Shown here in pieces: positions 7,848 through 64,000 of a stretch of DNA of 64,000 bases. The position numbers and the translations under genes are program-made. Each line of letters starts with the position of its first letter. Positions within the stretch are counted from its first letter, which is position 1. This DNA comes from Amanita rubescens (Eukaryota; Basidiomycota; Agaricomycetes; Agaricales; Amanitaceae), in the NCBI GenBank assembly GCA_015039365.1, contig WION01000103.1, positions 62,001 to 126,000 on the forward strand, given 5' to 3'. The notes below the pieces were generated by a model. That model saw nothing but the letters and a program-made list of their open reading frames with translations. It did not search any database and was not told the origin of the DNA.

Positions 7848-9820
7848 TCACAATACATTCGAGAGTTCCGGTATTAGCTCATCTATCGAAGGTCTGCCCT
7901 CCGGATCCCTCCACCAACATCGACAAAGAAGGTCCCACATCTTGTCATCCAGCCCATGCTTGGTAACAAGCAGATCTCCCGGGCGATCAGGTAGCGCACC
8001 CACTACCTTTTTATTGAGCACTTGCAATGTTTTTCGATTAGCATATGGTTATCATGTGTGAACAACTAAGCAAAATCAGCGCCCCAATGTCACGCACAAG
8101 ACTAAGCTGGACAAACCTGCAAGATTGTCATGCCAAAGCTGTAGATATCGCCCTTGCACGATACCGTAGCTTGTTCTTCAAACATCTCTGGTGCACTCCA
8201 TCTACAACTATCCGACACGCCACTGGTTTGGGTGATCAAGTTCCCGTCAAGCTACAACAGCAGGGTTTAGCGATACATCTGAACGTAGATTTAACGTAAC
8301 TTGCCTTGGCGAGCGCAAAGTCCGTGATCAGCGGTTGGCCCTCGTCTCCAATAAGTACATTTTCCTTGCCAAGATATTAGTCTGTTGCGTACGTGATTGT
8401 AATGAATGGCAGACTACGAACAGCTCTCAAATTTCCATGGATAATAGGGGGATCCATACAGTGTAGAACTTTTATTCCTTCAGCAATCCCGATGATCTAC
8501 GATAGCATAATCAAGATTTGTGCATGAAGACAGGGCAAAGCAACACACCAGTTGTTTGTAGTCGAGAAACTCGTTTGCCTTGACATATGCCAGCGCGTCA
8601 CCATTTTTCATCCATGGGCTAACCAGAGCACTAGCGTGATGACAACATCAATGACAGTGCATCACATTGTCAAGGGTACTCACAGGCGAAGACCGTCAGG
8701 GGTAAAGAAACCATAAAACGGTATAATATGCTTTCCATGGTCCTTTTCTTGCGCCGTTGCCCATAGTTCAACCTCCCGCCTAACTCTCTGAACACCCGTT
8801 AGTGACAGCGATGGTTCGGCGTTAGGGAGACGTGCCTTTATACTCTTTTTATCTCCAGCATTGACCGAGTGGATGACCTTGATTCTCACGTCCTGACTGT
8901 GGAGGTATCGTCCCTTGTACATATCGGCGTTCTGGCCACTCGGGGTGGCTTCACCCGACCACTCGACCATTCCATCCAGCTGGCAGTCAGGTGGAAGTTG
9001 ATTGGACAACTGAAGCAGATCGTATAAATTCTTTGCCATACGCTTTTGCTCCTCTTCTGACACGATCCCATGCCCTGCTAAGCCCTGGTCCATTGTTAAC
9101 TAGGCCAGGCCCCTGGGTATGGATAACGCACTCTTTGCATCATCGTTGATAGGGCCTTTATATCATCGCGACACTCTGTAAGATTACTTTCTACAACGCG
9201 TTGTTTGAACCCTACAGCAGAAAGCTGTCTCATGATATCTTTGTGGTCAGCATCCAGGCTCTCTTCGAGATTTCTCTGCCACTTTTCGTCTTCCTTTTGG
9301 TGTACTGGGTCTTCTATATGTAACGCAGTCTGGCAGACCGTCGTCAAGGAAACGGGTCATTAAAACCGAGGGTGCTTACGGTGAAGACAGCCAAGCAATC
9401 AGATATACCGTCATCGCAGTCCTTGAACTCTGCCTCGAAATCGCTTTGATGCACTATCATAAAGAACCAACTTTTGTCCGACCACTTCTGCATGGTATCC
9501 TTGACTTGTGAGAGACATCTACACGTCATCAGCGGAGTCTTATCATTGAAGAACTAACAACCGACTTTAATATCTTATCCCTGTATTGAACCGTTTGCTG
9601 TGGAAGAGGTAGCTGCTCAAACTGCTCCAAAGACATGCACAGTTGCCCACATCTCTCAGTCAAGCAGCGAACGGTATTCCTGTCAACGGATTAGAAATAA
9701 CTAAAGTGTGAAAAATAAGACGTGCTTGTTTTGAGGGAGGCTGTCGCATAGGGTAATTATGGCGGACAGAAGATCTTGAACAGCATCTAGGCCTGGAATT
9801 GTCGTTGAGTTCGCTTTTAA
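7848..9820 (-). CDS. MLKL_NTD-like helical domain plus pseudokinase, in frame with the upstream kinase gene
   Basis: The N-terminal region matches the other two MLKL-like genes of the window: an IPGLxAVxDLLSAII motif followed by LCDSLPQN (about 9800-9720). Amphipathic helices follow in exons at about 9675-9575, 9526-9390, 9330-9130 and 9080 onward. This is the pattern of the fungal four-helix-bundle domain related to the MLKL N-terminal domain, which in MLKL binds and permeabilises membranes. The C-terminal kinase fold keeps an IKVI lysine but has HGN in place of HRD and DFA in place of DFG, so it is probably a pseudokinase. It ends LIPELSNVL with TGA at 7850-7848. No ATG precedes the helical domain: the frame continues upstream without a stop from the kinase end of the next entry. 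It is therefore either the C-terminal part of a very large fusion or a gene that lost its own first exon. Confidence 0.65.
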
Positions 9821-12800
9821 GTCGTTTGGCCGCTCCGTAAGGGTGGCAGGCGAAGTCAACTTCGTAATTATTTGTTCCATCGTTGGACGATTAGAAGGAA
9901 TCGATTTCCAACAGCTTTGAATGGCATCCCATGTATTGTCTTCCATTTTTGGACTTTCCAATCGATTTGGACGTTTTCCATTTATGACGAGTCGCATGAT
10001 TCGAAAGTCGCTGGTTCCATGAAAAGGAACAGCACCAAAGAATATCTATGTTAGTAGGTCACAAGTTGCTCGTAATTCAAGGAAAACCTGAAGCGCACCG
10101 CATAATAAAGACAACCGAATGCATAAACGTCGGTTGCCATTGTTTTGCCTCTATGATGGTCTTCGTGACCTTTATAGCATCCTACGCACTCAGGCAGGCC
10201 GCACTTGATGCATATACCAAATAATTCGGGCGCGGCGAAACTTAAAGAAAATACTGCTGTAGATCGGGAAACAGCAGCTTCAGAAGGTCGACCTAATCCA
10301 AAACCAGAGATTTGGCAATGGAGATCAGCGTCAACGAGGACGTTTCCCTGAAAGGAAATGGGATGATCTGACTGGGAATCTATCAAAATACTTACTCCAT
10401 GTAAGTCACCATGCACAATCCCTTCCGAGTGAATGTACCGGATGCCCTCAGCTACCTCTAACATCTAATAGATACTAGCGTCATTATCGGACTCTCCTGA
10501 TGACTACTGCAGCAATCTTACCAGCCTATATATATCAGCTACAGTGGGTAACCGGTTGTTTCTCCAATCTCCTAATGTTCCATTTTTCATGAAAGGTGAT
10601 ACGAGGAACAGCTGTGGTCTATCCTCAAATATACCCACTAGAGGGAGGATAAAACGGTGTTCCAGTGATCGCCATACAAGCGCTTGCCGACAAAAATCTT
10701 GTCTGATCGAATTCTTACAAAATAAATTAGTACTATGACGAGAAGACAAACGCGAAACGAGCTAACATCATTACGGCCTTTGTCCACCACCTTAAGCGCT
10801 ACTTGCTGCCCTCTGTATTCGCCTCTGAAAACACGTCCAAAGCCTCCCAGGCCAATTGCTCCAAGATAAGGCTCAGCTTTAACATCGGTAATAAATAGAG
10901 ACTTTGGTAAGACACTGGTCATAGATATCAGCCTGAACATCAACTTTCTGGCTTTGCGATTTGCATCAGGGAAGCCTGAATCGACCAGGCTACAATTGCG
11001 GAGTAACTAGATGAAGGAAAAGATAGTGCACAACCGCAAATATGACTCATGCAAACTTCGACGTACTTGGAGGATGAAATCAAGCAATAACTGAACGTCT
11101 GATGTAATTCTGAGTTGGGAGGTAATACTATCAAATTCAGGTAGATCCAAGAGTTTACGCATACAATCAATGGTATGCGGGTTAACCATTGATTCGCCGA
11201 GCGCCTTTAGCTAATAACTATTAGCAGCAGTATATCGATGACCTGGAAGAAGTACATACCTCAATTATGAGGGTGGTAAGTAATGATGCAGGGCGAGTCA
11301 TATGGCTCGTCACAATTTCATCCATTGATGGACGTCCAGATGGATTATGGGACCAACATTGCTGTACAAGGTTCCAAGTGTCATCGTCCATTTTTGGACT
11401 GTCCAGACGACTTGGTCTTTTCCCATTAAGGATGTACGGGATGATTCGATATAGGGTTTCCCCTTGAAAAGGCATGGTGCCAAAGAATACCTAGACAAGT
11501 CATCATTAAGCACGTCAAGTGAGTCGGAGGCTTACCGTATAATAAATACATCCGAATGCATATACGTCTGTTTGTGTCGTTTTTCCCTTGTTTTCCCCGG
11601 GACATCCCGATCCGTCGCACTGGGTCTGGTAGCATAGGGTGCACATGCCTACCAACTCCGGGGCGGCATAGTTAACTGAAATTGCCGCTATGGATGGCGA
11701 CAGAGTGGATTCAATATGTCGGGTTAATCCAAAATCAGTAATTCGGCAATGGAACTCAGAATCGAGAAGGACATCTGCCTGGAGGACGAAGGTAGGACCG
11801 GTCAGGAAACTATGACATCAGAATACTTACTGCACTCAAATCCCCATGTACAATACCTTGCGAGTGAATATACTGAAGCCCCAATGCTACCTCGAACATC
11901 TGAAACCTATCAGCGAATCTATTCTGTTACCTTCACAGAAATCTTACTATTCTGCGTATTTCGATTTCGCCAGGCCAATGGTTCTGCCTCCATTGAAACA
12001 ATGTCCCGTTTGTCATGTATGGTGATACGAGGAACAGGTGTGACTTCGTTTCATATATCCCCAAGAGAGGAAGAATAAATTTGTGTGAGAGTGACCACCA
12101 TGCGAGGGCTTCTCGACAAAAATCTGTTCGAAGTGAATCCTTTACAAACTGATCAGCGTCAGAAAAGTAAAGACTATCAGCACTGACTTCGATATTGCGA
12201 GCTTTGTACAATACTTTCAGCGCGACCGGCTGTCCTCTGTGTTCGCCTTGGAAAACACTACCAAAGCCACCCACACCGATGGTACTAAGATCAGTCTTGA
12301 CATCACTGATAAATAGAGTTTTCGGCAAGACATTCTTCTTAGACAATTTGTCCAACAACCTCCTGGCCTTACTGTTCGCGTCTTCAATGCCACGATCCTT
12401 CAGGCTACCGTTGCGAAGTACCTAATTTTCGGGAAAGAATATTAAGGGATAAACAAGTCAATTAAAACTACGCACACAGAGGGTGAAGTCAAGAAATAGC
12501 GCAACGTCAGAAGCAGTTTCTAATGCTGAAACAACGGAGAGACGGGATAGGTCTGACTCTGACAATTTGATCATAAAATCAATGGTAATATGATTAATTG
12601 CGTTCAACGGGGATGACTAGCAGTTTTCAATAGTTAGCGGTAATCTCTTGATGCGCGAGATATTCACACCTCTACTCTGAGTATCGTGAGTAATGATGGA
12701 AGAGGAGGTCTCGTTTGAAAGAATTGCACATCTTTCTCCGTGATCTGCCGTGAAATGTGTCTAATCAGCGATGAGTTGATGCCAAGCTATAAATTTCACA

Positions 12801-14701
12801 CCTCATTCTCCTTCAACAAAGCATTTACCTTACTCATCATCGTATTACTCGCGGGCGAAGGTTGATCTCTAACAATTGCGGTTATTGTGTTGTGAACCAT
12901 TTCCATCCGTTCCGAGCAAACGAACTCGTAGACAATTTCATTTACACTGTCTGGTGTTACCTTTCCTTTAAATCGAAGGAAAATCTGGAAGACCGCTTGA
13001 AGGATCAATATGAGGTCCACTAAATATCTCATAATATACTCTGATCTATTGAGAAGCTCAAAACATCTGCTCGAATGACAAGCTACAGATGCTCACCGCC
13101 CTTGATTGGCATTTTTTGTCCATCCGCCCCCTACACCAGATGCCACTGTTAACTCAAGTTGCCTTGTAAACAACATTAGCTGAACCCGCACATCTACATG
13201 ACCTCAGGATCACCTACGTTGTACTGATATCGGTTCCATTTCTATCGGGATCCTCAACGATGGACATCATTCGGCAACGGAATGCGTCGCTAAGAAGAAA
13301 CTAAGAAAATGTGATGATCAAAGAGACGTTCGAGATACACTGTTTTGCACACCTCGTCCAAACTCCAGATGGTAGCAATCTCTTTGTGTATTGCACGAAC
13401 GCGCTTGTCAAGGGTAATATCGAAGAAATGCTTGTCAGATGTTATTGCATTCCATGCTATGAATTTCAGTAAGAATGGATGAGCATAGGAGAGAGCTACG
13501 GCAGCTGTACTTACTTTTTCCCCCTATTCTGATATACGATAAATACGATATTCTTAGTACTTTATTCTATATAAAGAGCTTACTTTATCGATGAGGCAAC
13601 CTTGGCCTGTATATCGACACGTTGCGCCGCAGCTAGAGCGACTTGGGCGGTATACGATATATCTTCAGGTAATGTTGCTTGTCGATCGTTCTTGCTATTC
13701 GCATTGAAAATACTTCTCATGGTGATGTTGACCAGCCGCTGTAAAGTTTCAGGCTGCGATACTACGCAGGCAATCAACACAAACTAAGTGACACTAAAGA
13801 TAGACTTACTCGCAACGAACGTGTAGGGTATCCCGCCTGAGCCACTCTTGATCGAGGCTTCAAATTTTTGACCATATCTTTTCTGAAATTCTTTTTCGGC
13901 GAATTCCTGGATACTCTCGCCATTCTGTCTGCCTTGCTTAGCCATCTGCGACACGAAAAGATCAAATTTGGTAAACACGACAATTATCGGCACTGTTGTG
14001 ATCATAACTCTGATTTTGGGAACAGCGATTGGTGTACTTACCATGTTTTTGAATCATCTTGAAAATTCCTTTGTCCAATATTAGGTCATCCGAGGGAGGG
14101 GTAGCGATGCAGATCCTGCAAAGTAACATGAATCGGACTGATGGTTTCGAATCATTTACGAAGTTACCAAATAGCATGAAGCCTCTCAGCAACCGGCTTC
14201 TTCTGATTCCGCCATGCGACAAAATTCTTCAAGATACCGAATTCCTCCCCACTTCGTAGTACATCATCATGAGAATAGTGTACAGCTAGACGTTCGTTAA
14301 ATTGCGATGTGATTTCTTGATTGATATCGGTAGTTCCTCTTTGGACGTCCTACATGTCGTTCAGCAATTGAAGCCTGATAAGCAAATCGGGAAGTATACT
14401 CCAAGAGAAGGCTCGAATATGGCTTCGATAAGCGACATTTTCCCTGATCCACGCTGAAACGACATCCATCAAGATAATACATTCGGCGGGAACGACAACA
14501 ATTCTTACTGGACCAATGACAAGAACTCTAAACCTGCAATACATTCAGCCCGATACTTACGATTGATTCAAAGTAATGTCACCTTGGGCACTCCTCAGCA
14601 TTCGGATCAATTATACTAAGTTCAGGGGACGTCTTGGAGGAATGGAGAGACAACTTTCGGGAAACCAGAGAAGCCAAAGCTGACTTCCTGATGAAGTCCA
14701 T
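9821..14701 (-). CDS. GTPase-like / tandem kinase protein (degenerate G domain)
   Basis: The start ATG at 14701-14699 opens a frame ending in EECPR before the first intron, as in its paralogues. The G domain reads FRVLVIG then PRGSGKMS: the P-loop serine is replaced by methionine. The G3 DxxG is absent, while G4 TKFD and the G5 region remain. A helical region (about 13032-12796) follows, then kinase 1 (about 12500-11240) with VALK, HGDLSA, DFG and a cysteine insert; its catalytic-loop Asn is Asp (ADVLLD). Kinase 2 (about 11200-9850) has VALK and HGDLHG, but SGFG replaces DFG. The two kinases are joined by a phase-0 intron (acceptor CTA at about 11218). The final kinase exon has no stop and runs straight into the MLKL-like domain. 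The protein is likely cytosolic. Which kinase is active, if any, is inference: kinase 1 is the better candidate. Confidence 0.75.
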
Positions 14702-16812: not shown

Positions 16813-19800
16813 TAAAGAATATCTGTGCAGGTGATGAATCGGTCACTATCTGTGTAAGTTAAGGAATGGCTGAAACGCACCGCATAATAAAGGCAGCCGA
16901 ACGCATAAACGTCGGTTTTCGTTTTGTCATCAGTTTCCATTGTTTTGTGGTTATTCCGTTCCTTGTGATAGTCGCACCCGTAAAAGCCACACGTAGTGCA
17001 CATACCAAATAGCTCAGGTGCACCGAACCTTAAAGCAAACATTATTGCGGGTTGCGTCTCAGAGGCTTCAGAACGTCGAGATGTCCCAAAATCAGCGATC
17101 CGACAGTGGGAATCGTCGTCGAGGAGAATATTCCTCTGTGACGGGACGAGATGAGATGATTGGGAACGTCTGACATCCAATTACTCACTGTGTGTAAATT
17201 GCCATGCACAATCCCTTCCGAATGAATGTACTGTACGCCCTCAGCGACCTCCAGCAGCTAACAATAACGAGTATTGTCACTTGACTGCTCTCGAAATAGT
17301 TATAATCTTACCCGCTTAAGTATATCGACCACAGCAGGTATCTGATTCCTTCTCCAATCACATAATGTTCCATTTGTCGCGAACCGCGATACGAGATATA
17401 GCTCTGAATCGTGTTTAAATAATCCCTCTAGAGGTAGGATAGAAGGGTGATCGATTGATCGCCACCCTAGTGCTTCCCGACAGAAGTCTTGCCTGAGTTG
17501 ACCCTTATCAAACAAATCAGTGCCATGACGAGGAACAAAACAGCAATGAGCTGACTTGTTTACACCCTTTGTTCACCACCTTCAGCACTACGTCTTTTCC
17601 TTTGTATTTGCCTACGAAATTACGACCAAGGCTTCCTATACCAATCTTTCCGAAACGTTCCTCGGTCTCAACATCAGTAACAAACAAAGGCTTTGGTATG
17701 TGACTTGTTTTAGATATCAACTTAAACATCAAATTTCTGGCTTTCCGATTTTCGTCTTGGGAGCCTGGAGCGGCCAGGCAATGGTTGCGGAGCAGCTAGA
17801 CAGAGGAAAGGATATAGTACAGGTGTAGCAGTAAAACTGGACTTCACGTACTCGGAGGATAAAATTAAGCAGTAACTCGACATCTGACGGAACTAGTTGG
17901 GAGATAATATTATCTGAATCTAAGTCAGATAGAGCCAACAGCTTGCGCATGCGATTAATGGTAGGTTTGTTGGCCCGACTGAGTCCCTTTAGCTAGCGAT
18001 TATGAGCAACAGGACATTGATGAATTTAGAAGTTCGAACCTCAGCCATGAGAGAAGTAATTAACGATTCAGGGCGAGACATGGGGCGAGGCATGGGGCGA
18101 GGCATTAGCATATGGCTCGCCACAATCTGCTCCATTGTTGGACGTTTGGATGGATCGGGGGACCAACAATCTTCTACCAGCTTCCAGGTGTCGTCATCCA
18201 TTCTTGGACTATCCGGACGACATGGTTGTATTCCGCTCGAGATGAGCTCAAGGATCTGAGATGGTTTTTTTCCTTCAAAAGGCATGGCGTCAAAGAATAC
18301 CTGGATGGTCACCATCAAGCGTGCCAGATGGGTAGCGGGACTTACCACATAATAAAGACGTCCGTATGCATACACATCTGTCTGTGTCGTTTCCCTTTTG
18401 AACATGCCCACCAGCTCTGGGGCAGCGTAATTGATTGAATCGGTCATGGCGGATGACGATAGAGTGGATTTGATTTCTCGGGTCAATCCAAAATCAGTTA
18501 TATAGCAGTGGAATTCGGAATCAACGAGGACATTCACCTAGGAGACAAAATTATCGACTGCTAGTCGGGAAAATATCAAAATACTTACTGCGCTCAAGCT
18601 GCCATGGACAAGACCTTCCGAGTGAATATACTGAAGGCCCTGCGCTACCTCCAGCATCTAACGCGTATTAGAAAATCCCTTCTGCTGAGCACGGCAAACT
18701 TACTAATCTGCGTATATCAACTTCATCTAGCTGATAATTCCTCCTCCAATCAATTAATGTTTCGCTCTCCATATACGGTGATACAAGGAACAACCACGAT
18801 TTCTCTTCATATATTCCTAAGAGACGATGGATGGACTTGTGTGAGAGTGACCACCATGCTAAGGCTTTCTGACAGAAGTCCTTTGAGAGTGAACTTTTTG
18901 TGGACACATCAGCTCTGTAAATCACTTGCAGCGTAACTGGCCGTCCTTCGTGTTGGCCTTTCAAGACACTACCGAAGCCACCCGCGTCAATTGCGCTGAG
19001 ATTTGTCTCAACATCATAAACTTTCGGCAAGGGGTATTTCTTAAACAGGCTTTTTAAGATCTCCGTGGCCTTGTGGTTCGCGTCCGGAATGCCATAATTC
19101 AAGTTCTCCAGACCACAGTCATCACGTAGCTGAATTGGGGAAAGTAAATAACGAGAAAGAACTGGGATGAAAATACACACATAGCGGGTGAAATCGAAGA
19201 ATATTTGAACATTTGCAGCAGTCACTAACTTTGAAATAACATTCAAGTAATCTTGCGAATCCAATAGTTTACTCATAAAGCCAAGTGTCATCCGGTTTAT
19301 TGCGTTCCGTGGAAATAACTAGTGTTTTCTATGATTAGTGGCAGTCCATTAATGCGTTAGATGTTCGCACCGCAATTCTGAGGATTGCGAGTAATGATGG
19401 AAGAGGAGGTTTTGTGTGACTGATCGGGTCATCATTCTTGATCTGCAACACGTGTATTATTAGCAATAAGCCGACGCCGAAATACGAATTCCGCACCTCA
19501 TTTCTGTCTATCAACAACCTTATCTCATCCGCCATACTATTGCTTGTGGGCAGATTCTGATTTCCGTGTTGATCCCCTACCAACGTAATTATCGCATTAT
19601 GGATTGATCCCTCCCGTTCCGAGCCAAAAAATACGCAGACGATTTTATCTACCATGTCTGGTGTCACTTTCTGATCAACAGAAATTTGAAACACTGCTTG
19701 TAGAATCAATACGAGGTTGACGAAGTATTTCAAGATAAGCTCCTGCCTATCGAGGAGTTCAAAACAGCTGCTGGAAGAAAAGCAAAAGATGTATACCGTC

Positions 19801-21349
19801 CTTGGTGCACGTCCTGCTGTCCCGTATCCCCTACCCTACATGTTGTATCACGTTGCCGCCATTAGCTGTGAGTGATGCATAATATTATCTCGCGATCACC
19901 TACGTAGTACTGGAATTGCTTGGAGGTTCGTGATCCTTCGTGATAGACTTCATCTGGCGGCAGAATGCCTCGCTGAGAAGGAACTGTCAAACACAGTGAA
20001 TCCAAAAATACGTTCTGGATACACTCTTATGCATACCCCGTTTAAACCTCGGATATTCCAGATGGTCACAACGTGTTCGTGTATTGTACAAAGACGCTTT
20101 TCGAGGTCAACATCCGAACAGTGCTCGCCGGGTGCTATTACATTCCATACTGTGAATTATTTGTCAAGTATCGAGAGAAAACCACCATGAGGAGACTTAC
20201 TGTTTTCCCCTACTCTGCTAATACAATGTCAAATACGTTAACAAATATACGGGGAGCCTACTTTATTGACGCGGTGACCTTGATCTGTTTGTCAACACGT
20301 TGCGCGGCAGCTAAAGCAATTTGCGCCGAATGTGACATATCTTCACCTAATCTCGCCTGCTGGTTGCTCTTGCTAGTCCCGTTGAAGAGGGAGCTCAGAA
20401 CGCGCTCGAACCTACTCGACGAATCTAGAATCCCGATGCCTATGCCTTTCACCGTGATGTCGACTAGTTTTTGTAAAGTTTCAGGCTGCGATGCTACACG
20501 GCTAAATCAACGCGACGAAGGAGTGAACGAGGTAGACATACTTGCAACGAATGTGTATCGTTTCTGGCCTGCGACGTTCTTGGTTAATGCATCTAGTAAT
20601 TTACCATATCTTGTCCTTATCTCTGTCTCGGCCAATTTCTGACTACTCTTGCCATTCTGCGTGCCCTGCTCGCCAAGCCTGTTTTCGAACACATCCAATT
20701 TTGTAAACACGACAATTATCGGCACTTTTGTAATCGTGACTCTTGATTCAGAACAAATATCGTGGATAGCTACCTTTGCGATTAAACTTGAAGATCTTTT
20801 TGTCAAATGTGATGATTGGGTCACCTGAGGACGGTGTAGGGACGCAAAACCTGCAAAGTAACATAAATTGGAGTGATTGTTCCACAATATCAACGATCTC
20901 ACCAAATAGCATGAAGCCTTTCAGCAACTACTTTCTTCTGATTCCACTCTTCAAGAGCTTTCTTCAAGATACGGGATTTCTCTAGATCAAGATCGCGGAT
21001 GTCTAGACATTCGTTGTCCGATTGGACGATTTCTTGAATCTTATCAAGCACGCCTGCCTGATCGCAAGAGATGTCCTACGTGTCGCTTAGCTGTCGAAGC
21101 CTGATAACTAAGTCAGAGAATATACCTCAAGAGAAGTCTTGAATACAGCGTCGATAAGCGACAACTTCCCTGGTTCACCCTGTGAAACATCCAATGAAGA
21201 TAACACGCATATACAGCGGGGACAGCAATAAGGCTTACTCGACCAGTGACAAGGACTCTGAACCTGCAAGACGCTCAGCCCGAAGCTTATGACGATTCAA
21301 ATCAATGTCACCTGGGGCATTCCTCAGCATTGAAGTCTGTAGGGGTCAT
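16619..21349 (-). CDS. GTPase-like / tandem pseudokinase protein
   Basis: The ATG at 21349-21347 (MTPTDFNAEECPR, then intron) is the only start in the open frame. The G domain reads FRVLVTGR then GEPGKLS, so the P-loop Ser/Thr is Leu; G3 is missing and G4 TKLD is kept. The helical block is at about 19733-19500. Kinase 1 (about 19290-18050) reads VTLQ for the ATP lysine and HGS for the catalytic motif, keeps DFG and lacks the cysteine insert. The intron that normally splits the N lobe is absent, and a short MPRP-type repeat precedes the inter-kinase intron. Kinase 2 (about 17990-16619) keeps VVLK and DFG but has HGN and only a partial cysteine insert. Both kinases are therefore probably inactive. 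The protein ends EIVETLRPKL with TAA at 16621-16619. It is divergent from the NLR gene, with about 1.5 kb between starts. Confidence 0.8.
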
Positions 21350-33300: not shown

Positions 33301-35160
33301 AGTGACTCAATTTTATCCATCATCATATCGCTTTTAGGCAAATCATGATCCCCGACAAATGCAGTTATTGCGTTATGAATTGATTCCTTCCGTTCCGAGC
33401 AAATAAACTCGTAGATGATTCCATTTACGTCATCTGGCGTCATTTTTCCTCTATCTTCAAGCGAAATTTGGAACACTGCTTGTAGGATCAATATGATATC
33501 CACTACGTATCCCATGATGCAACGAATATGGTCTGGCCTGTTGAGAAGTTCAAAACATCTGCCAGAATAACAAACGGCATATGCTCACCGCCCTTGATAA
33601 ACGTCTTTCGTCCACTCGCCTGCTACCCTGGATGCCTTGATCACATCACGATGTCTTACAACAGCCGTTAGTTGTACTACGCATCAATCCCAAATCCACC
33701 TACGTAGTACTGGTATTGGAAAGATTGAGATCATTCACGACGGCAGTCGTTTGACAGTAGAATGCGTCGCTGAGGAGAAACTACTCGGACGCGATGAATT
33801 CAAATACACGTTCGAGATACGCTGCTGTACGTACCTCGTTTAAATTCCGAATATCCCATATAGTAACAATGCCTCGATGTATCTTGGATATACACTTTTG
33901 AAGGCTAACGCCAGATCTTATTGCACGCCAATACCCTGTTTGTGGATGTAAGAACATGGAACGTTGACAGTAACCACGTATCCACTTTACTTTCTTTTAC
34001 AGCTCTGGAAGGAAAAGTTAAGTCTAACTTTATTCATTTTTCTTTTCATTCCGATACTTACTTTATTGATGCGGTGATCTTGTTTGGTATATTAACACCT
34101 TGGGCCGCAGCTAAAACAATCTGGCCTAAACCCCATGAATCGTTATGCGATCTTGTACGTAGAAATTTCTCGCTAGTCTTATAAGTATTGAATATATGTT
34201 TCTTCAAGCACACAAGCCCCATCCGCGGACTTGAAATATTGGTGTCTACACTTCGCATCGTGATATTCACCAATCGATGCAAAGTTTCACACAGCGATAC
34301 TGGATGAAGATGGTAGTTTATATGGAGGAACGCGACACAAACGTACCAGATACCAGAGCGTATTGTGCCTGATCCAAGTCGTTCTTGGTCGCATTCTCGA
34401 ATGCTTTGCCATATCGTTCCTTGAATTTTTTCTCAGCCAACGTTTGGATTTTTCCTTGCTCTGTTCCCGCATTGTTGAGACTGGCTATGAATAGGTCAAA
34501 CTTTGTGAATATGACGATTATTGGTACTACGATCACGATAAGTCCAGAAATGCAATTGGATAAGCAGGTGGTTGCCTTTGTTTCGATTCAGCTTGAAAAT
34601 TCTTTCATCGCCTTCGAGTATTTTGCCACCGTCAGGAGGCACGGTAATACACAACCTGCAAAATAGCACATGTTAGAGCAATTCCATTCGCGACACTACG
34701 AGCGCACCAAATCGCGTAGAGCCTCTCGGAAAGAGACTCCTTCTGACTCCGCTCTTCGATAAATTGCTTTAAGATATCGAATTTCTCCACGCTTTCTGGA
34801 TCGTAACGTTGGAAAACATGAAGAATAAGATGTTTATTATGCGGTGAGGTGATTCCTTCGTTGATATCGGCTGCATAGCCTCGATCGCGTTGAACATCCT
34901 AAACCTTATTGAGGGATTAAAGAACAGTCATAACAGAAGACATACCGCTAAAGAAGTCCCAAATACAGCGCCGATGAGAGTCGATGTCCCCGTTCCGGGC
35001 TATTGAAAGTGAAGGACGTCTGGATTGCTCGTGTGGGAAAGGTGGTAAGTCTTACTTTGCCAACGATAAGAATCCTGAACCTGTGATGCGTGAATTAGCT
35101 TGATGTCATTGATTGGTTGAACTTCCGTCACCTTGGACATTCCTCGGAATCCAGGTCCAT
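30310..35160 (-). CDS. GTPase-like / tandem kinase protein, both kinases with intact motifs
   Basis: The start is ATG 35160-35158 (MDLDSEECPR). The G domain reads FRILIVGK then PGTGTST: the P-loop lysine is replaced by Thr. The G3 position reads HVFQRYD instead of HDSEGYE, and G4 TKFD remains. GTP binding is thus doubtful. The helical block is at 33515-33249. Kinase 1 (about 33050-31750) has GAGGFGSVYKG, VALK, HGDLSA, ANVLLD, DFG and a CxxCx4CxxC insert. Kinase 2 (about 31690-30310) has GFGHIFRG, VALK, HGDLHG, GNVLLD, DFG and the same insert. The kinases are joined by a phase-0 intron (acceptor TTAAAGGGG). One G-domain intron has a GC donor (AAAG, then GCAACC). The gene ends with TGA at 30312-30310. 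Of the tandem-kinase genes, this one most likely retains two catalytically competent kinases, although both lack the Arg of the HRD motif. Confidence 0.83.
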
Positions 35161-42573: not shown

Positions 42574-45500
42574 ATGGATCCCCCCTCTCAGATGACATTG
42601 CCGTCTGTCCGTCCCTCCGGGGCGGACCTTAGGCCAACGACAGAGCTACTTGGTGAAGAGTGTCCAAGGTGAGATTGATATTAATTCAAGCGATCGGTAA
42701 AATCCCAACATGCATTTCAGATTCCGGATCCTCATCGTTGGTCGAGTAAGATTTGTCGTCTTCCAAATCGCGTTTAGTTCATGGTTGTCATTTGACAGTC
42801 AGGCACGGGGAAATCCTCACTTATCAACGCTATATTCAAGGCCTCACTCGCGGTACGCGGTCTAATACCGATATTCTTCCACTGCTCAATAGTGTTTAGG
42901 AGGTTCGACATGATGAAGCTGGCAGGGCCGATATCGACAAAGGAATCACCTCACCTCACAATGAACATTTGATTATACATGATTCCGAAGGTTATGAGCC
43001 AGGAAACGAAGAGAAGTTCCGTGTCTTGGAGAGATTTATCGCTGAGAGAAGTCAGAAGGATGCCATCGCTGAGAGGCTTCACGCGATTTGGTGCGCACAT
43101 GGATGACGTGAATTCAATACCTCTCATTTCATGTTGTTTCACAGGTTGTGCGTTACTGTACCTTACGCTGGTAATCGGATGTTCGAAGAAGGCGACGAAA
43201 AGATTTTCAAGCTGAATCGAAACAAAGGCAAATACCCGCAATTTCAAAACCGGTTTCTGACTCGCTAACCAACAACAGTACCAATAATCGTCGTCTTTAC
43301 AAAACTTGACTTGCTCGTAGCGAGTCTCGACAAGTCGGGGGTAAGGAGAGGAGAAAACAGCCCAGAGCTGGCAGAAAAAGACTTCAAGGAAAAATATAGT
43401 CAAATATTCGAGAGATCAACTACCAAGAATGCGGGGGGTCACATACCATACGCTCTCGTCGCGAGTACGTTTGTATATCGATGTTACCTTTTCCTTACTG
43501 AAATCTTCATGAAGCGTCCCTTCCCGAAACGTTGCAGCATCTGGTCGATATCACGATGACAAGTATACGCGTCGAGACACCGGGTCCAGCCAAAGGGCTC
43601 GCGCGCGTTAAGGGATTTTTCAATAAATCTGCCGATAACAACCGGCTGACAAGGATTGATGAAGACGTGTTAGATTCGGCGCAAATTGCCTTGGCAACTG
43701 CACAGCGCGTTGACATGCCGGCCAAGATTATTGCATCGGTAAAGTAAGTAGCCCGTCAGCAACGGATAAATCTGACATCTGACATTATTACAGAGTGGGA
43801 AAAAAGAGTAAGTCGAACCCGCAACTCCGTTTTGACGTTCTGCGTTCTTACGTCTATCAGAATATTGGAGAGCAATAGCATCTGGCTTATACTTTCTCGG
43901 TGTCAGCCTTGACAAGTGCTTATATGCCATACATAAAGACATCACCACGATTTGGAATATCCGAGGTTTGGATGAGGTATGTACAGGAATTGGTATTGAG
44001 TCTATTCATCTTCACAATTGCAGTTCCTTGATAGCGAGCCATTCCGTCGCCGAATGATGACTATCGTTGAGGATCTTACTCATCAAAACCCGAGGAATCC
44101 TGATAACATGTGTGTGGAATTGGGGATATTGACGAATATCACAGCTAATGCCCATTGCAAGACAAAGCAAAATAACGATAGCATCGGCAGCGGCGGGCCT
44201 AGCAAAGAACGTGTGGGCGAGCGGTGTTTACCAAAAATTGTGAGTATGCCTTGCTTTTTATATAAGCAGACATGTTGAGCTTCTCAAAAGGCCTGAGCAT
44301 GTTCGTTGTCTCATGGGATATGTAGTGGACCTTACACTCATCCTACAAGCCGTGTTCCAAGTTTCACTTCAGGATCGGCTTGAAGGAAAAGTCACACAAG
44401 ACCGCGTCAACGAAATCATCTACGAGTTTCATTGTTCAGACAAGAAGAAACGTATTCATGATGCAATTCGGTCATTCGTTGTTGCTCAACACCCTTTTGC
44501 GAAGGACAACGTGGTGAACAAGATCGAGTCTTTGATAAAGGATAACGAGGTCTGCAGCTCAAACCTCACCGTCAACCCATTGCTAACCATACATCCCCCG
44601 TGTTCCATTACAGATGACAAGGGACGATATTCAATTTAATGACAAGAGGCCACACCTTCCATCATTGCTTACCATCCTTAGATTCGAGGTTTGGCGTCTT
44701 CTGGGCCATCAATGATCTATCGCTAATAATTGATAGTTAACCGCGAACGGCACCTCCATTATGATTGTGAACCCAACTACGCTTAGCTTTACGGGAAGAC
44801 TATTAGTGCTACCCGACTTTCGCAATCTCGTACACAACCTCGATGCTTTAGACGTTGAGCTATTACTGGACTTCATCCTCTACGTGTGTATATGTATTCC
44901 CCGCCTCTATACTATTATCACTTACTTTCTGTAGCTACTTCGCAACGGTAGCCTATCCAATTCCGGCATTCAAGAAGCCAACCGAAAAGCCAGGAGATTA
45001 ATGTTCAAACTGATATCCGAAAAAGATGCCCTGCCCAAATCTCTGTTTATTAATGGTGTCAGGACCGAGGCGGAACTTTCCTCTAGCGCCATTGGTACGG
45101 GAGGTTTTGGAAATGTCTTTAAAGGCGAACTCAAGGGAGAGCCGGTCGCGCTCAAAGTGCTATACAGAGGCCAAAAAAAAGTTAGTGCCTTACCATTCTT
45201 TTCTCTCGGTAATACTGATCTGATCTGTAAGGATTCACTCAAAAAAGACTTCTGTCGGGAGGCTCTTGCATGGGGATCACTCCCACACCGCTACATCCTC
45301 CCTCTACTGGGCGTGTTCGAGGACAGATCAGCCCTGTTCCTCGTGTCACCGTACATGACGAACGGAACATTATCGCAATGGAGGCACAGGAATCAGCCAG
45401 CCGTGGCTGATATACATAGGCGGGTACGTTTTCGATGCCTTGCAGTCCAGTCGGGTGACTTTCTGATGCCTGTTAGATGTTTGAGGTAGCCCAGGCCATC

Positions 45501-46502: not shown

Positions 46503-49500
46503 TTAGACTTGAGCACCCGGAGAAGTCAGCGACTCTGCTATTTTCTCCATCGTCCAACGTTCAGAAGGCTTGGCGGGCCAACAACTCTGGATTATACCCC
46601 ATATATTATCGTCGATTGTCGGATTCTTCAATCGATCTGGACGTGATCCACTTGTGACGAGACGAAGAATTTGATATTCGTCTCTTCCTTGGAAAGGAAA
46701 GGTATCGAAAAATATCTACACAAGTTATCACCAAGCGCTTACATTGTGTTGAGGTACTACTCACCGTGTAATAAAGGCAGCCGAATGCATATACATCTGT
46801 CTCCTTCGTTTTCCTTTTGCCTTTCGGCGCGTCACGATCCGTACGGCATGTATCGCAACCGGTCCCGTCACATTTGTCGCAAGTGCCAAATAGCTCGGGA
46901 GCAGCAAAATTTAACGAGATTGACGAGGCAGCTTGCGTAAAGGTGGCGTCAAGATGACGAGTTAATCCAAAGTCGGCGATTTGGCAGTGGTGATTGGCAT
47001 CAAGAAGTACATTGTCCTGGCATACAAAGAAATGAACAAGGTAACGATATGGGCATTAAAGTACGCACCCCTTTCAAGTCTCCATGTACGATCCCTTCTG
47101 TGTGAATATATCGAACGCCTTCGGCTACTTCAAGCATCTAGCAGATATCAGGGATCTTGTTCAATGACCTGGCAAGCATCAGAAACTTACCAGCTTATGT
47201 ACATTAGCCACGTCTGGCGTCAGTTGACTCTTTCTCCATTGCGTTAACGTGCCATTCATCATGAGCGGCGAAACGAGAAATTGCTGTGATTTTTCTTCAA
47301 AGATTCCCGTTAAAGGAAGGATAAAATGATGATCGAGCGATCGCCAAGCTAGTGCTTCCCGACAGAAGTCTTTCTTGCGCGTACCCTTACCAAATAGGTC
47401 AGTTTTGTTGAAGCAAAGGCGTAATTGCTAACCTCTTTGTCCAGCATTTTTAGCGCAACGTGATGTCCTTTGTGTTCACCTTTGATAACACGTCCATAGC
47501 CGCCAAAACCAAGGGTGTCACGATATGACTCAATCTTAACGTCGGCGATAAATAGGAATTTAAGTGTGACATCCGTCTTGGATATCAATTTGAACATTAG
47601 TCTCCTTGCCCTTCGGTTGGCATCTGGAATGCCGGAATCCAACAGGCTGTGACTGCGGAGCGCCTGTAGAAATTAAGCAACTTTATCAAACAATCGGATC
47701 AAAGGTGGACGAACGTAGAGGATGAAATCGATCAACAGCTCGACATCGTTCACAGGATCCTTCAATTCGTCGACAATAGTGCCATAGTCCGGTATATCTA
47801 ACACTTGGCGGAAAAGGTTAAGGATAACCTTGTTCGCCACTAGGCCGTTTACACTTTGCTAAAATTCATTAACGATAGCTCGGCAATTCCTCCAATGTCC
47901 GCACCTCAAATCTGAGGATAGAAAGTAATAATGGAAGAAGAGGTCTCGTTTGGTCGAGTTGCCTATCATGCTCCGTCATCTGTAGTATAGTAAGCGAAAA
48001 ATGTGATTAGCATAAGCTCACGCTAGAATAAGAGACTTTGTACCTCATTTCCCTTTATTAAAGACATGATCTGTTCCACCATGCTAACCTTTGCAACGAC
48101 GTGCTGGAGCCCAATGATTGTTTCGTGAATACGTTTCTTCTTTTCCGACAAATGAAACTCATAGATGATTTCAGTTACGCGCTCTTGTGTTACTTTCCCC
48201 TCTGTTCGGTCTTGTAGCGAAACTTGAAACACGACTTGTTGAATAAGTGTGAGGTCCACTACGTATGCCATGAGGAACTGAATATGTTCAGGTCTGTATC
48301 AGACACCTAAGTCAATTGTCTGGATCACAGCCGGTATATGCTCACAATTTTTTGTAAACAGCACTCGTAAACTTGCTCAGTAGGCCAGGCGATCCAATCG
48401 CTCCCTTGTTCTGACTAACGACAAGCGTCAGCTTTTCTGATCTATAATTGAACAAAGTACACCTACATAGTGTTGGGAGACTTTGGATTTCCATGGCTGA
48501 GATCGCCAACGACGACGGTCATTCGGTTAGAGAATTCCTCACTGAGAAAATACTATCAAACCATGATGAGTCCAGTGACGTATCGAAATACGGTACATAC
48601 TTCATCAAGATCACGAATGTTCCAGACGGTGATAATGTCTTTGTGTATTGCGTATCGGCACTTTTGAAGGCTAAAACCTATGAAGCCTATGCCAGACCCT
48701 ATCGCGCTCCAATATTCTGGTAATTTATTAAATGATGGAACGTTGACAAAAAAAGCTGCAGCCTACTCTTCTCTCCTACTCTGTTATAATACCAGACGTT
48801 AGGTCTATCCTACTTCAAAAAAAAAGTCCTTACTTTGTCGATGCGGCAATCTTGGCAGGCATATCGACACGTTGCGCTGTTGCTAATGCGATTTGTGCTG
48901 AATCCGCCATATCCTCGTCTAATCCTGCCGGTCAGTCATTTTCTATATCAAACCTGTGACCCCTACCGCGTGTAAGACGACTACCGGAACTCTCGGCTAT
49001 GCTTTGCATCGTAATTTCGACAAGCCGCTGCAAAGTATTAGGCATCGAAACTATGTGAGGATATCAATACGAACGAAACACCCCCAGATGTAAACATACT
49101 CGCCACAGTCGTGTATGGGATCTTGCCAGAGATGTTTTGCGTCGCCTTCTCGAACGCCACTCCATGTTCATCTCTAAACTTTTTCTCAGCTAAATCCATA
49201 CTAATCTTTTCCTTCCCCCTATTCCGCCTGCTCAAGCTCGCTATGAAAAGGTCAAACTTTGTGAAAACGACGATTATAGGCACTGTTGTCACGGTAAGCG
49301 TGGCATTAGGCAGGGATTGAGGATGTTTATTACCTTTGTTGCGATTCAGCTTGAAAATCTTTTCTTCTCCCGTTTCAAATATTCGACCTCTAGAGAAAGG
49401 CGCAGTAATGCACAACCTATTTGACAACTTGAGTTGAAAAGATTGATTAATATCATTGAACGCACCAAATTGCATGGAGCCTCTCAGCAATGGGCTCCTT

Positions 49501-49971
49501 CTGACTTCGTTCTGTGATGAATCTCTCCAAGATACCAAACTTTCCTATGTCCCCCGGCTCATAACCTTGAGAATCATGAAGGATTAGATGTTTGTTGTGA
49601 GGTGAGGCAATTCCTTCGTCGATGTTGGCGGAACCGGCTCGGTCGTGTTGGACATCCTAGGTTCGGGTGAGCAGAGGAAAGATACCCGATAAAGAGATTA
49701 TACCGCCAGAGAGGTCTTGAAGATTGCATTGATCAGAGACGATTTCCCCATTCCAGACTGTTATAGAACGACCATGAACACAGCGTGTAATAGAAATAGT
49801 AGCTGGTCGTACCCGACCAATGATAAGGATTCGGAACCTGGAATTACACAGTCAGGTGGATGTTATCGATAGCTCTAACTAACGCCACCTTGGACATTCT
49901 TCGGCAATGCGGTCTGTAGTGGGAACAAGAAATTGCTCAACGGCAGCGACAGGCGACATAGGGGGGGCCAT
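46503..49971 (-). CDS. GTPase-kinase fusion protein, single kinase
   Basis: The ATG at 49971-49969 (MAPPMSPVAAVEQ) opens the frame ending EECPR. A longer frame upstream to 50088 is not conserved in paralogues. The G domain is intact: FRILIIGR then SGMGKSS, HDSQGYE and TKFD. The helical region is at 48271-48040 (VDLTLIQQVVFQ). The kinase N lobe (47642-47430) has GFGGYGRVIKG and VALK. The catalytic loop is HGDLKG, then DNVLLD and ADFGLTR. The insert after APE is CDKCDGTGCDTC, a clean CxxCx4CxxC. The gene ends SPGAQV with TAA at 46505-46503. It is convergent with the 42574 gene, and the two are the most alike in architecture. Confidence 0.87.
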
Positions 49972-57873: not shown

Positions 57874-60800
57874 ATGGCTTCGCCCCCAGGCTCTCCAATA
57901 GCTAGCAGTCCTTCCACTGGTCCCATGGGCGAGACGAGACCTGTTGACGAATCGGAATGTCCCAAGTGACGTAGTTTGTGTCATCCATGAATCCAACTCA
58001 ACATCCTACAGGTTTCGGATCCTTATCGTTGGTCGCGTAAGATTCCTCACCGTCATCAATACATGATCTGCTTATGAATACCATTTGGCAGTCTGGCACG
58101 GGAAAGTCATCCCTTATCAATGCCATATTCGGGGCATCCCTCGTGGTAGAATCTATGTCACAAGTCATTTCTCAAACACTCAACGGCTCTTAGGATATCA
58201 AGCATAATCAAGCAATATCAGCAGATGTTAATAAAGGAATTACCTCAGCTCATAACAAACATCTAGTCATCCATGATTCGGAAGGTTACGAGCCAGGAAA
58301 CGGGGAGAAAGTTCGTGTTTTAGAGAAATTTATCAAAGGGAGGAGCCAAAAAGAGCGCTGTGATAAGCTTCATGCCATCTGGTGCGCTAATACATGGGAT
58401 CGATTTTTCCAGCTTACATTATTTACTAACAGGTTATGTGTTACGATGCCATCCTCTGGTGGCCCCACCTTGGACAAATGGCACGAGAAGATTTTCGAGC
58501 TAAAACTAAACAAAGGCAATCTTGATCTGCAATTTCATAAGTTCTGACTCCCGACTTACTACGACAACAGTGCCGATCATTGTCGTTTATACAAAATTTG
58601 ACCTTCGTGCCGAAAGATTGGATGAAGATGGTAAAGAATTCACTGAATTAAGTTTCAAGGAAAAATATGGTCAAAAGATCGAACAGCGAACGAAGCACTG
58701 CATCATGCGCCAGATACCATACACTGTTGTCACGAGTATATTTATTCTAATTACTCTCGCCTTGAAGCTTCGTTAACATCTTCTTTATAGCCTTGCGGCC
58801 TGAAACTATGCAGCAGCTGGTCAAAATCACGATGGAAAGTATACGGCATGTAAATGTAGAGATTCCTAGTCCATATATTGGCTTCGTCCTCCGCGATAAC
58901 GGATTAGGGAATGGTGGATCAGCAGCATCAGAAGAAGATTTAGCACAAGATGCTTTTGCAATGGCACAACGCGTTGATACGACCTCCAAGATCTCCGCGT
59001 CGATAAAGTAGGTTACCTTAAGGTATTAATTTATGATGTCTCACGACTGTAGACGAGGAAAAAAGAGTGAGCTGGACCTGCAGCTTGTTGTCAACAATCT
59101 GGGCCTTTGACCGCTATTTACAGAGTATTGGAGGGCAATAGCATCCGGGATCCACTTCCTCGGCCTTAGCCTGCGGAAGTGTTTATACAAGATGCACAAA
59201 GATATTGTCGCTATCTGGAATATCCCGAATCTAGACGAGGTATGGCACCGGAGCGTATCTTAAGCGTATTTTTGGACTCGTGATGTCTTGATAGTATCTT
59301 CTCAGCGATGACTTCTGTCGGCGTATGATGGCCGTCGTGGATGACCTCGTCCATCAAACCCAAACGAATACCAATATGAAGTGCGTGGACCGGATGTCTA
59401 CAATCGTTTGGAGCTGATGATCGCTTGAAGGCAAGGCAAGATTCCGAAACAGGGGGTGGCATATCTAGCAATCGCATGGGCGAACAACCTTTACAACAGA
59501 GTGTAAGCATGTCTTATTTTGATCCTGTGCAAGTGTTGAACTTTTCTTAGGCCTGAGCATATTCGTTGCCTTATAGGTTATGTAGTGGACCTCACGCTTA
59601 TCCTCCAAGTAGTGTTCCAAGTTTCACTTCAGGATGGTCCGGAAAAAAAGATAACACCAGACCGCGTAAACGAAATTATCTACGAATACCATTCTTCAGA
59701 AAAGAAGAAGCGTATTCATGACGCAATCTGGGAGTTTACAAAGACTCATTCTCCGGCGACAAAGGATGACGTTGCGGATGTAATCGAGTCATTGATAAAC
59801 GAAAACCAGGTGTGATATTCGAAGCCGCCGTGAACTTATGCTAACGGTACATTATCGTACGGCACTGTAGATGAAGAAGAATGATATTCAATTTGGTCAG
59901 GAGAAGCCAGCTGTTCTGTTATTACTTGCGATCATTAGACTCGAGGTGTGCGGTCTAGTGGCGTAACCTCACCGTCGCTAATAGCTGTTAGCTATCCGTA
60001 AAGGGGAAGATAGTAAACCGAACTACCCTTCGCCTCATGCGCAAGCTATTAGATTTACCGAAATATGATAGTCTTGCGTCTGAACTGAAAGCTGACGCAG
60101 ACACCGAGCTACTGCTCGATTTCATCCTCTACGTACGCGTACCTCCGCTCGTTTGTTTGGCTTGATCGTTTACTCCTCGTAGCTTTTCTCAAACAATAGC
60201 CTGTCGAATTCTGACATTCAAGATGCCAATAAAAAAGCTAGACAGCTGATATTCAATTTGACATCCACAAAAAATGTCATACCCAAGTCTATATTTATTA
60301 CCGACGATGTTACAACCGAGGTGGATTCCCGTGACTTTGCCGTTGGAGGTCTCGGACGTATTTTCAGAGGAGAGCATAATAAAAAAAAGGTTACCCTGAA
60401 AATGTTCAGCAGAGATCATAAAGAAGTTGGGACATTACTTTCTTATTTGTCGCCATACTGATTCGCTTGGTAAGGGTTCAGTTATAGAAGTCCAAAGGAT
60501 CATAGCGTGGCGGTCGCTCGTGCACCGTTATATCCTTCCTCTACTAGGAATATTTGAAATGAAACCACAGCTATTCCTCGTGTCGCCGTACATGGCGAAC
60601 GGAACACTAACCCGGTGGAGAGAAAATAATCAAGAACCAGGAATTGCAGATAAGATACACAGGATGGTAAGATTCTGGCGCTCGTCAACACAATTTAATG
60701 TAATATACATACGTTTAGATACGGGAAGTGGCGGAGGGCATCAAGTATATTCACTCAGAGGGAATTGTACATTGCGACTTACGTGGAGTACGTGTTTTTT

Positions 60801-61740: not shown

Positions 61741-64000
61741 TTACAAATTACGAGACAGGATAGGCAAGTTTTGCTGAGGTGCGATGAACGGCGTCATCTT
61801 TTGCACAATATCGTCCATTTTCGGACGTTGAGAAGGGCTGGATTCGCGACAGCTCATAATGAGATCCCATGTATTGTCTTTCATCGTTGGACTATCCAAG
61901 CGAGTTGGATGTTTCCCGTCTGTGACGATCAGAGAGATCTGATACACGCTCTTCCCTTGAAAAGGTACAGTATCGAAATATGTCTGCACGAGTCGTTATT
62001 AAGCGCACTATAGTAACTTGAAGTACTTACCGCATAAAAAACGGAGCCAAAAGCATATACGTCTGTCGCCATTGTTCTCTTCTTCTGCGCATCAGAATCC
62101 CCTTGGCACCCTTCGCATTCTGGCCGTGAACAGGTGCACTTGCCAAATAGTTCTGGAGCGGCATAATGTATTGAGAATGCCGTGGATTTCGTAACAGTGG
62201 CATCTGAATGTCGTGTGAGCCCAAAGTCAGCAATTTGGCAGCGGAGGTTAGAGTCGAGGAGGACATTTTCCTAGTAGATGAAGGAATAAGCTACTTGACG
62301 AAATGTGGCATCAAAGTACTTACTCCCTTCAGGTCGCCATGCACGATTCCTTCTGAATGAATATACTGAACCCCTTTGGCCACCTCGTGCATCTAACAAT
62401 GTATGGATCATTCCATTTGATTATTCTGACAAACGCAGAAACCTTACCAGCCTATGTATCTCGTGTATTTTGGGCTCTTGGTTTCGTCTTCTCCAGTCTG
62501 TTAATGTTCCGTTGGTCATGTACGGCGACACGAGATATAGTTGCATATGATCCTCGAATATTCCAAGAAGAGGCAGGATAAAGTCATGTGTGAGCGATCG
62601 CCAAGCTAAAGCTTCTCGGCAAAAGTCTGTTCGTTGCGCATCCTACCATACGAATCAGAGTTGTCAAGGACAAAATGGGCAATGCGCTCACTTGAACTTG
62701 GTACAGCACTTTCAGTGCGACCTGTTTATTTCCCTGTTCTCCTTTCAAAACACGTCCAAAGCCTCCAATGCCAATGGTTTCAAGGATGTTGATATCACTA
62801 ACGAACAAAGACCTGGGTAGGATGTTTGTCTTAGATATCAGCTTAAACATCAGCCTCCTGGCTTTTCGGTTGGCATCTTGAACGCCAGAATTTGACAGAC
62901 GGTTATCGCAGAGTAGCTACAAAAAATAAGATATGATATCGAACAAGCAGAACGAAGGGCAACGCACATAAAGGATGAAATCCAGCAATAGCTCAACGTC
63001 AGAGGTCTCCTTCGTTTCAGAGACGATAGTACCGTAATCGGGTAAATCTAATAGTTTACCGACAAGCCCGAGGATAACTTGATTTACCAGCATGCCGTTG
63101 GCGGTTAGCTGGAAGTCATTAGCAGCGGAACGGTATTACTTCGATGACACACACCTCAAACTTGAGAATTGTAAGTAATGACGGAAGCGGGGATCTCTTT
63201 TGGTTAAATTCGGTATCACTTTTCGTCATCTATTGTGCAGCGTAGGAGGTGAACTATTAGCAACTAGTTGACGTCGAGGTACGGGACGCACACCTCGTTT
63301 TCCTCTATCAATGACTCGATTTTTTCTATAACGCTATCCTTTGCAAACGGGTGCTTCATCCCGACAAATTCCCAAATTGCGTCATGAATGCGTTTCTTTT
63401 TTTCCGAGCAATAAAACTCGTAGATGATTGCGTTAACCTGATCTTCCGTCACTATCCCCTCGAGTCGATCTTGAAGTGATACTTGGAATATGGCCTGTAC
63501 GATGAGCGTGAGATCGACTACATATCCCATGAGACAACGAGTATGCTCAGGTCTGTGGTGAGGTTCAGGATCTGCTAGAATAAGAAGCGTTACACCCTCA
63601 CCCCGCTTTGTAGATATTGTTCGTCCACTTTGTTAGGCCTGCCATCGACGATGTCATCGTTATCTTATTTTGCCTTTTTATAGTCATCAGTTATGCTAAT
63701 TTCAACAAGGCTTGTCCTCTCACGCATTGCCATTATTCTTTTGACTCTGACTATTGAGGTCTTCGACGAAGGCCATCATTCGGCGACAGAATGTATCGTC
63801 GAGAAGAAACTATTGGGAGCAATATATCAAAAGATACGTCAGGGATGTGTTCCACCACATACCTCATCTAAATCCCGGATATTCCAAACAGTGATAATAT
63901 CCTTATGTATTGCATATAAACAAGTGTCGAGGCTAAAGCCGAATATATGTATCCCGGATGCTATTGCGCTCCAATATTCTGTATATCGAGATAAGGACGA
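61741..64000 (-). CDS. GTPase-kinase fusion protein, 5' part beyond the window
   Basis: The 3' end of the gene is inside: the stop lies at 61741-61743 after a RPKMDDIVQKM C-lobe end and a short tail. The kinase has GGFGRVLKG, VALK, HGDLKG, ENVLLD and ADFGLTR, then a CTCSRPECEGC insert after APE and a TDVYAFG motif. The helical block is at 63530-63264 (YVVDLTLIVQAIFQ). At the right edge an exon encodes the YWSAIASGIHIFGFSLD segment that in paralogues follows the G domain. The G1-G4 motifs lie outside, so GTPase integrity cannot be judged. The kinase is single, because no linker helix follows it. Confidence 0.83.

Follow-up and report, generated by a model that had tools for sequence, protein, structure and literature searches.

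Does a kinase exon that runs without a stop into an MLKL-type domain belong to one gene and one protein and, if so, what could such a protein do? The question is raised by a locus on the minus strand of a 64,000-nucleotide stretch of Amanita rubescens DNA (positions 62,001 to 126,000 of contig WION01000103.1; hereafter the window), which belongs to contig C6 in an assembly of 786 contigs and 75.7 Mb. In this locus a GTPase-like tandem-kinase gene is followed in frame by an MLKL-type module with a four-helix bundle, a brace and a pseudokinase. A sequence-only reading of the window had proposed one protein acting as sensor, relay and executioner. The analysis revealed that the in-frame join of kinase and MLKL module is genuine at the DNA level and has no counterpart among the other loci examined.

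An in-frame kinase-MLKL join within one exon

A single exon encodes the end of kinase 2 together with the first MLKL helix (Table 1). Its frame, free of stops, reads from IFFGAVPF through RPTMEQIITKLTSPAT into IPGLDAVQDLLSAIITLCDSLPQNK. The sequence-only reading had placed this last kinase exon at 9997-9719; the join itself was confirmed, but the bounds were corrected to 10045-9726. In agreement with that reading, there is no stop after the RPTMEQII motif, and the IPGLDAVQDLL motif, expected within about 25 residues, is reached 22 residues further in the same frame. No in-frame ATG was found between the two motifs in the junction-exon sequence, as had also been stated, although an ATG inside RPTM (9880-9878) had been left out. 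The genomic frame continues for 54 residues past RPTMEQII, as compared with a stop 7-20 residues past the same motif in eight other terminal-kinase exons of the window (one of them a fragment). Because these exons stop early and the intron phases of the MLKL part match those of its paralogs, the run-on frame is more than a chance event.

The position of the breakpoint could be narrowed from both sides. Kinase homology ends at 9879-9854 in the comparison with 17 fetched kinase loci and at 9939-9847 with the kinases of the window, with 9847 as its outermost limit; on the MLKL side, homology is seen from 9801-9799 on. The gap between the parental homologies is as small as 45 base pairs (bp).

Three copies of the focal gene were compared, on C6 (the window), C1 and C334, and 1,161 bp around the junction exon were identical in all of them. 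Over 7.2-14.4 kb of the window, each 400-bp bin of C6 showed 0-2 base differences to C1 and C334, with 0.5-11% difference in the flanking bins. C1 and C334 differed by 0-1 per bin over 2.8-14.4 kb, and the low-difference block of C6 and C1 extended to ~15.6 kb. A selective sweep on the fused gene was considered and dropped, since the C1-C334 identity and the C6-C1 block look like shared descent. C334 carries a single coding substitution, R1016W. C1 and C334 have an intact last exon (8065-7849) and 1,696 codons; in the window copy this exon is frame-broken (stop 8005-8003), which leaves 1,644. Hence, the gene end at 7848 proposed earlier holds for C1 and C334 but not for the window copy. Within ~7 kb that are free of substitutions between C6 and C1, the two contigs differ in length by one base at two places, of which the break is one; for that reason an assembly error is possible, the alternative being a true break.

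Members of the kinase/MLKL cluster were also observed on as many as five contigs, whose content differs (C6, C1, C74, C129, C22 and C334), and C1 is without ~7.4 kb that is present in C6 between 21.8 and 29.6 kb of the window.

Table 1. Coordinates of the fused gene, its parts and related features (positions in the window).
Feature	Position	Strand	Remarks
Fused gene	14701-7849	minus	35 exons, 34 introns of 45-61 bp; spliced by hand with paralogs as guide
Degenerate G domain	14533-13584	minus	GPRGSGKMS; YSHDD at G3 place; TKFD kept
Kinase 1	12421-11260	minus	VALK, HGDLSAAD, DFG; Pfam Pkinase stretch 556-819
Kinase 2	11006-9847	minus	VALK, HGDLHGGN, GFG; ends RPTMEQIITKLTSPAT
Junction exon	10045-9726	minus	kinase 2 end and MLKL helix 1 together; open in frame
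Possible internal start	9880-9878	minus	in-frame ATG inside RPTM; A at -3, G at +4
Breakpoint interval	9846-9802	minus	~15 codons without detectable homology to either parent
MLKL-type four-helix bundle and brace	9801-9085	minus	PF22215 stretch 1221-1346, 25.7 bits
Junction intron	9725-9680	minus	GC-AG, phase 2, donor AACAA/GCACGT
Pseudokinase	9084-7849	minus	IKV Lys kept; HGN for HRD, DFA for DFG
Second GC-AG intron	8835-8788	minus	AAG/GCACGT
Third GC-AG intron	8304-8252	minus	AAG/GCAAGT; common to paralog C
Paralog A	41098-39074	minus	stand-alone MLKL-like gene, own ATG, 505 amino acids (aa); public allele P0050
Paralog C	38610-36560	minus	stand-alone MLKL-like gene, own ATG; public allele P0051, 509 aa
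G domains of two-kinase genes	20534-21268, 34321-35082, 13584-14533		G1 and/or G3 degenerate
G domains of single-kinase genes	42719-43478, 49098-49839, 58010-58737		SG(T/M)GKSS, DS(E/Q)G kept (3/3)

Gene model, splicing and predicted domains

The gene model comprises 24 introns in the upstream part, all with GT donors, and 10 in the MLKL part. The phases of the latter (2,2,0,0,0,2,0,0,0,0) follow the same order in the focal gene and in paralogs A and C, the two other MLKL-like genes of the window, which were found to start at their own ATG as the sequence-only reading had claimed. A public A. rubescens protein is 97% identical to paralog A. The GC donor of the junction intron occupies a position where paralog A has GTACGT and paralog C has GTGCGT. 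When this intron is left unspliced, the frame ends at a stop (9703-9701) after QNKHVLFFTL. GC donors are found in three of the ten MLKL-part introns of the focal gene, in one of ten in paralog C and in none of ten in paralog A. As the GC donor of the intron at 8304-8252 is common to paralog C, the comparison suggests that GC donors are used here.

Pfam analysis of the predicted chain showed three kinase stretches, two of them before the junction, and Pkinase was matched in all 18 relatives. No GTPase family scored above the Pfam cut-off in the chain, and neither did NACHT or NB-ARC, nSTAND1 reaching 12.9 bits vs 27.1. With GPRGSGKMS at G1 and YSHDD at the G3 place, the G domain has lost the P-loop Ser/Thr and DxxG. 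Kinase 1 has an Asp at the catalytic-loop Asn position (HGDLSAAD). In kinase 2, GFG takes the place of DFG, with the Asp lost, and the pseudokinase, with HGN at HRD and DFA at DFG, is likewise without catalytic residues.

For the bundle, the PF22215 (MLKL_N) score was just under the cut-off of 27 in the focal chain (25.7), as compared with 28.0 in paralog A and 27.0 in P0050, and the family was matched at E <= 0.01 in 7 of 18 relatives. A bundle profile of eight sequences compared with the PDB returned the MLKL chain 4btf first (E 0.017, positions 9-155), the next matches being at E 0.6. The MLKL label and fold predicted for the bundle have modest to moderate support. If the chain is translated as predicted, the bundle is without a free N-terminus, as kinase 2 precedes it in frame.

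Related features were observed in other kinase genes. G1 and/or G3 is degenerate in each of the three window genes in which both a G domain and two kinases were seen. This does not hold as a general rule, because the Amanita brunnescens protein AX14_000496, with two kinases, keeps the G1/G3 motifs. The second kinase is without a catalytic residue in three of four tandem-kinase genes (HGN at 2117-2199, HGN at 17212 and GFG at 10344), and that of the tandem-kinase gene at 30.3-31.5 kb looks intact. The pairing of kinase and pseudokinase recalls plant tandem kinases.

Relatives and direction of the fusion

The MLKL-class sample, taken from the top of 101 matches in which alleles and split exons are counted, consisted of 30 loci containing the MLKL middle part. 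Exon 1 was present in all 30. The MLKL domain is preceded by its own methionine in 27 of them and by a kinase instead in three, which are the focal copies; no other kinase-then-bundle join occurs among the 30. When the junction was used as query, its first 22 residues were covered by the three focal copies only, out of 101 matches to that query. The linker before the focal bundle has a mean hydropathy of -0.61 and three acidic residues, as compared with -0.14 to 1.42 and 0-1 acidic residue in 17 leaders; judged by this comparison, the focal MLKL unit has lost its hydrophobic leader.

In a tree of 21 proteins, in which 9 of the 18 inner branches are poorly supported, the focal MLKL unit was sister to A. 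brunnescens AX14_000497 (support 100/99). This protein (P0056) has its own methionine and leader and starts MPRAASIFAAIVAPTLQVASAATLIPSL; AX14_000496 (P0107) is a GTPase-like tandem kinase with a normal end, RPTIDHIVKALIPST. Since the closest relative keeps its own start and leader, the fusion looks, most simply, like a derived loss of the gene boundary in the A. rubescens line. The ratio of nonsynonymous to synonymous substitution rates (dN/dS) between the focal MLKL part and paralogs A and C was 0.12-0.24, and 0.17 between A and C, with dS values of 1.2-1.6, near saturation. Unique changes in the focal and A. brunnescens lineages, counted with the last exon excluded, numbered 28:24 in bundle and brace, 19:13 in the helices alone and 15:17 in the pseudokinase.

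Other unusual domain combinations were seen among the public proteins. In P0064 (783 aa) the focal order is reversed: the pre-kinase linker known from the tandem-kinase family comes after an MLKL-class pseudokinase, and a Ser/Thr/Pro-rich stretch stands where the bundle would be. Either a further join or a faulty gene model may lie behind this. Kinases are joined to RasGEF domains in P0001 (Crucibulum laeve), which has a weak N-terminal MLKL_N match of 19.1 bits, and in P0172 (Candolleomyces aberdarensis). P0142 (Leucocoprinus birnbaumii) has two kinases behind a bundle-aligning stretch that may be bundle-like; no Pfam match was obtained there.

What the join may encode

The single chain and domain order of the sequence-only reading are supported by the open frame, the intron phases and the intact end on two of the three contigs, but the window copy ends early. 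Our tentative reading, to which we give a little less than even weight, is that the locus encodes a fused chain of ~1,700 residues in which the MLKL module serves as internal bait, scaffold or brake, not as killer. Through a rearrangement, an MLKL-type gene would have become attached in frame to the final exon of a GTPase-like tandem-kinase gene, leaving the MLKL side without a stop-start boundary, a start codon or a hydrophobic leader. The promoter of the tandem kinase would drive one transcript, the GC-AG junction intron would be spliced out, and the central, leaderless bundle would hardly be able to insert into a membrane alone. The chain could pair with the stand-alone MLKL paralogs through bundle or pseudokinase contacts, and thereby hold them in check or recruit them upon engagement of the kinase part. 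Because several nucleotide sites are degenerate, such a bait, scaffold or brake is preferred to self-contained execution. Membrane attack by HeLo/MLKL bundles is considered to require a free N-terminus; placed centrally, a HeLo domain would depend on an additional membrane segment or on translocation of the part preceding it, according to the available part of PMC3531502. The proposed decoy use of a fused tail has a precedent in wheat Lr9, where kinase 2 and the extra domain have been proposed as a decoy (available text of PMC10260399).

Several observations weigh against the fused bait or brake. The single chain, like its production from one transcript, is a prediction from the DNA; the bait or brake role is something that we infer. 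The window copy carries the frame break in its last exon, and the three contigs are one allele, not three witnesses, because the segment is common by descent. Public models split the locus into P0106 and P0063. P0106 (904 aa) shares the start MDFIRKSALASL with the focal model and agrees with it at 99% to residue 889, apart from a different splice choice near its residue 311, and, past kinase 1, ends inside a modelled intron. P0063 (410 aa) has an internal methionine as its start, drops the first two MLKL exons and has no GC donor as modelled here. The three GC donors in ten introns are an excess over ~1% in fungi (binomial 1e-4 to 2e-4 at 1-1.3%); a fungal survey, in its available part, gives 98.7%, taken here as the GT-AG share (PMC7072748). 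The excess may reflect regulated or weakened splicing; in human, nematode and Arabidopsis, alternatively spliced genes show an enrichment of GC donors (available text of PMC2490688). Judged by family lists and BLAST layout, none of 49 long proteins (904-2877 aa) and none of the matches listed (120 of 218) was recognised as a fused homologue. In eight of those candidates analyzed with Pfam, PF22215 was seen in P0001 only, near the N-terminus, at 19.1 vs the cut-off of 27. As for the direction of the fusion, the adjacency of AX14_000496 and AX14_000497 is taken from their tag numbers and a common contig size of 39,608, and the kinases of AX14_000496 are not clear orthologues, their best matches being spread over several window genes. 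Finally, the rates of change, which show no clear rise and so argue against long decay, mix the time before and after the fusion.

A first alternative, which seems rather unlikely, is that the locus makes two products, a tandem kinase ending at 9703-9701 by intron retention and an MLKL-like protein from the ATG at 9880-9878, with a promoter within kinase 2. The context of this ATG (Table 1) and the clean stop after intron retention agree with it, as do the separate public models and the 27 residues that would precede IPGL, as compared with 14-26 in 17 relatives. However, the would-be leader consists of the kinase end and an acidic linker, unlike the 17 leaders; the 45 bp between the homologies leave no intergenic DNA for a promoter; and P0063 starts elsewhere, at a later internal methionine.

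It is unlikely, in our view, that the fusion is recent and non-functional, the tandem kinase being used with a short tail and the MLKL part carried along as a decaying passenger. Although the excess of GC donors, the broken last exon of the window copy and the loss of leader and start fit such a passenger, the frame is intact on C1 and C334, no rate increase was seen, dN/dS is 0.12-0.24, all ten intron phases are kept, and the break could be an assembly error. We consider it improbable that the weak GC donor of the junction acts as a transcript-by-transcript switch between a short-tailed tandem kinase and a chain with the MLKL module. If this splice-switched death receptor existed, the fungus would arm or disarm a sensor by retaining one 46-base intron, and a working HeLo/MLKL bundle would stand mid-protein.

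The function proposed by the sequence-only reading, in which a kinase signal would free the bundle of the same molecule and kill the cell, did not find support and is highly improbable. The domain order and the open frame suit it, and the bundle core is kept (aligned to 4btf positions 9-155). It is opposed by the degenerate G1/G3, the change of Asn to Asp in kinase 1, GFG without the DFG Asp in kinase 2, and the loss of start and leader. Moreover, a central, leaderless bundle has been argued to be topologically restricted (available part of PMC3531502). An assembly artefact joining two genes, toward which the one-base length differences between contigs point by suggesting some sequence error, was rejected as having a negligible probability, because the same junction is present on three contigs with differing flanks.

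Known systems share single features with the fused bait or brake chain. Animal MLKL, the executioner of necroptosis, has the bundle, brace and pseudokinase in the same order; its bundle is N-terminal, whereas the focal one comes after GTPase-like and kinase domains that take up ~1,200 residues. Paralogs A and C resemble the basidiomycete MLKL-like proteins (BaMLKL) of the HeLo superfamily, and their extra N-terminal stretch may match helix hG, but the focal copy is internal and has lost that stretch (available text of PMC9815663). HeLo-NLR 'all-in-one' receptors likewise carry an executioner-type bundle inside a larger chain; theirs is N-terminal with a NOD domain, whereas the focal bundle is internal and its chain has no NACHT/NB-ARC Pfam match. 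HELL domains joined to kinase or pseudokinase domains are noted in the same source, as far as available (PMC12881547). Wheat Lr9/WTK6-vWA also combines tandem kinases with an extra C-terminal domain, but it is a plant protein, the extra domain is vWA, and no G domain is named in the available part of the account (PMC10260399). In the MLKL-type Pm13 of wheat, again a plant protein, the bundle is N-terminal (available text of PMC10951266). The two tandem kinase domains are shared with plant tandem kinase proteins, a class defined here by plant origin and a proven immune role, whereas the focal chain is predicted from a basidiomycete sequence. The A. brunnescens pair, a related GTPase-like tandem kinase and the closest MLKL unit under consecutive tags, differs in being two separate proteins with their own stop and start, as judged from the protein sequences. 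A kinase-MLKL fusion of this kind was not met in the part of the open-licence literature that was searched.

Exceptions to the N-terminal position of HeLo domains were earlier suspected to be possible artefacts of open reading frame prediction (PMC3531502, available part). At this locus, an internal case of the HeLo/MLKL type is seen in the DNA of a single exon. The rule of the free N-terminus and the fusion of sensor and executioner in one chain thereby become directly testable, and the locus offers a parallel with the tandem-kinase fusions of plant immunity.

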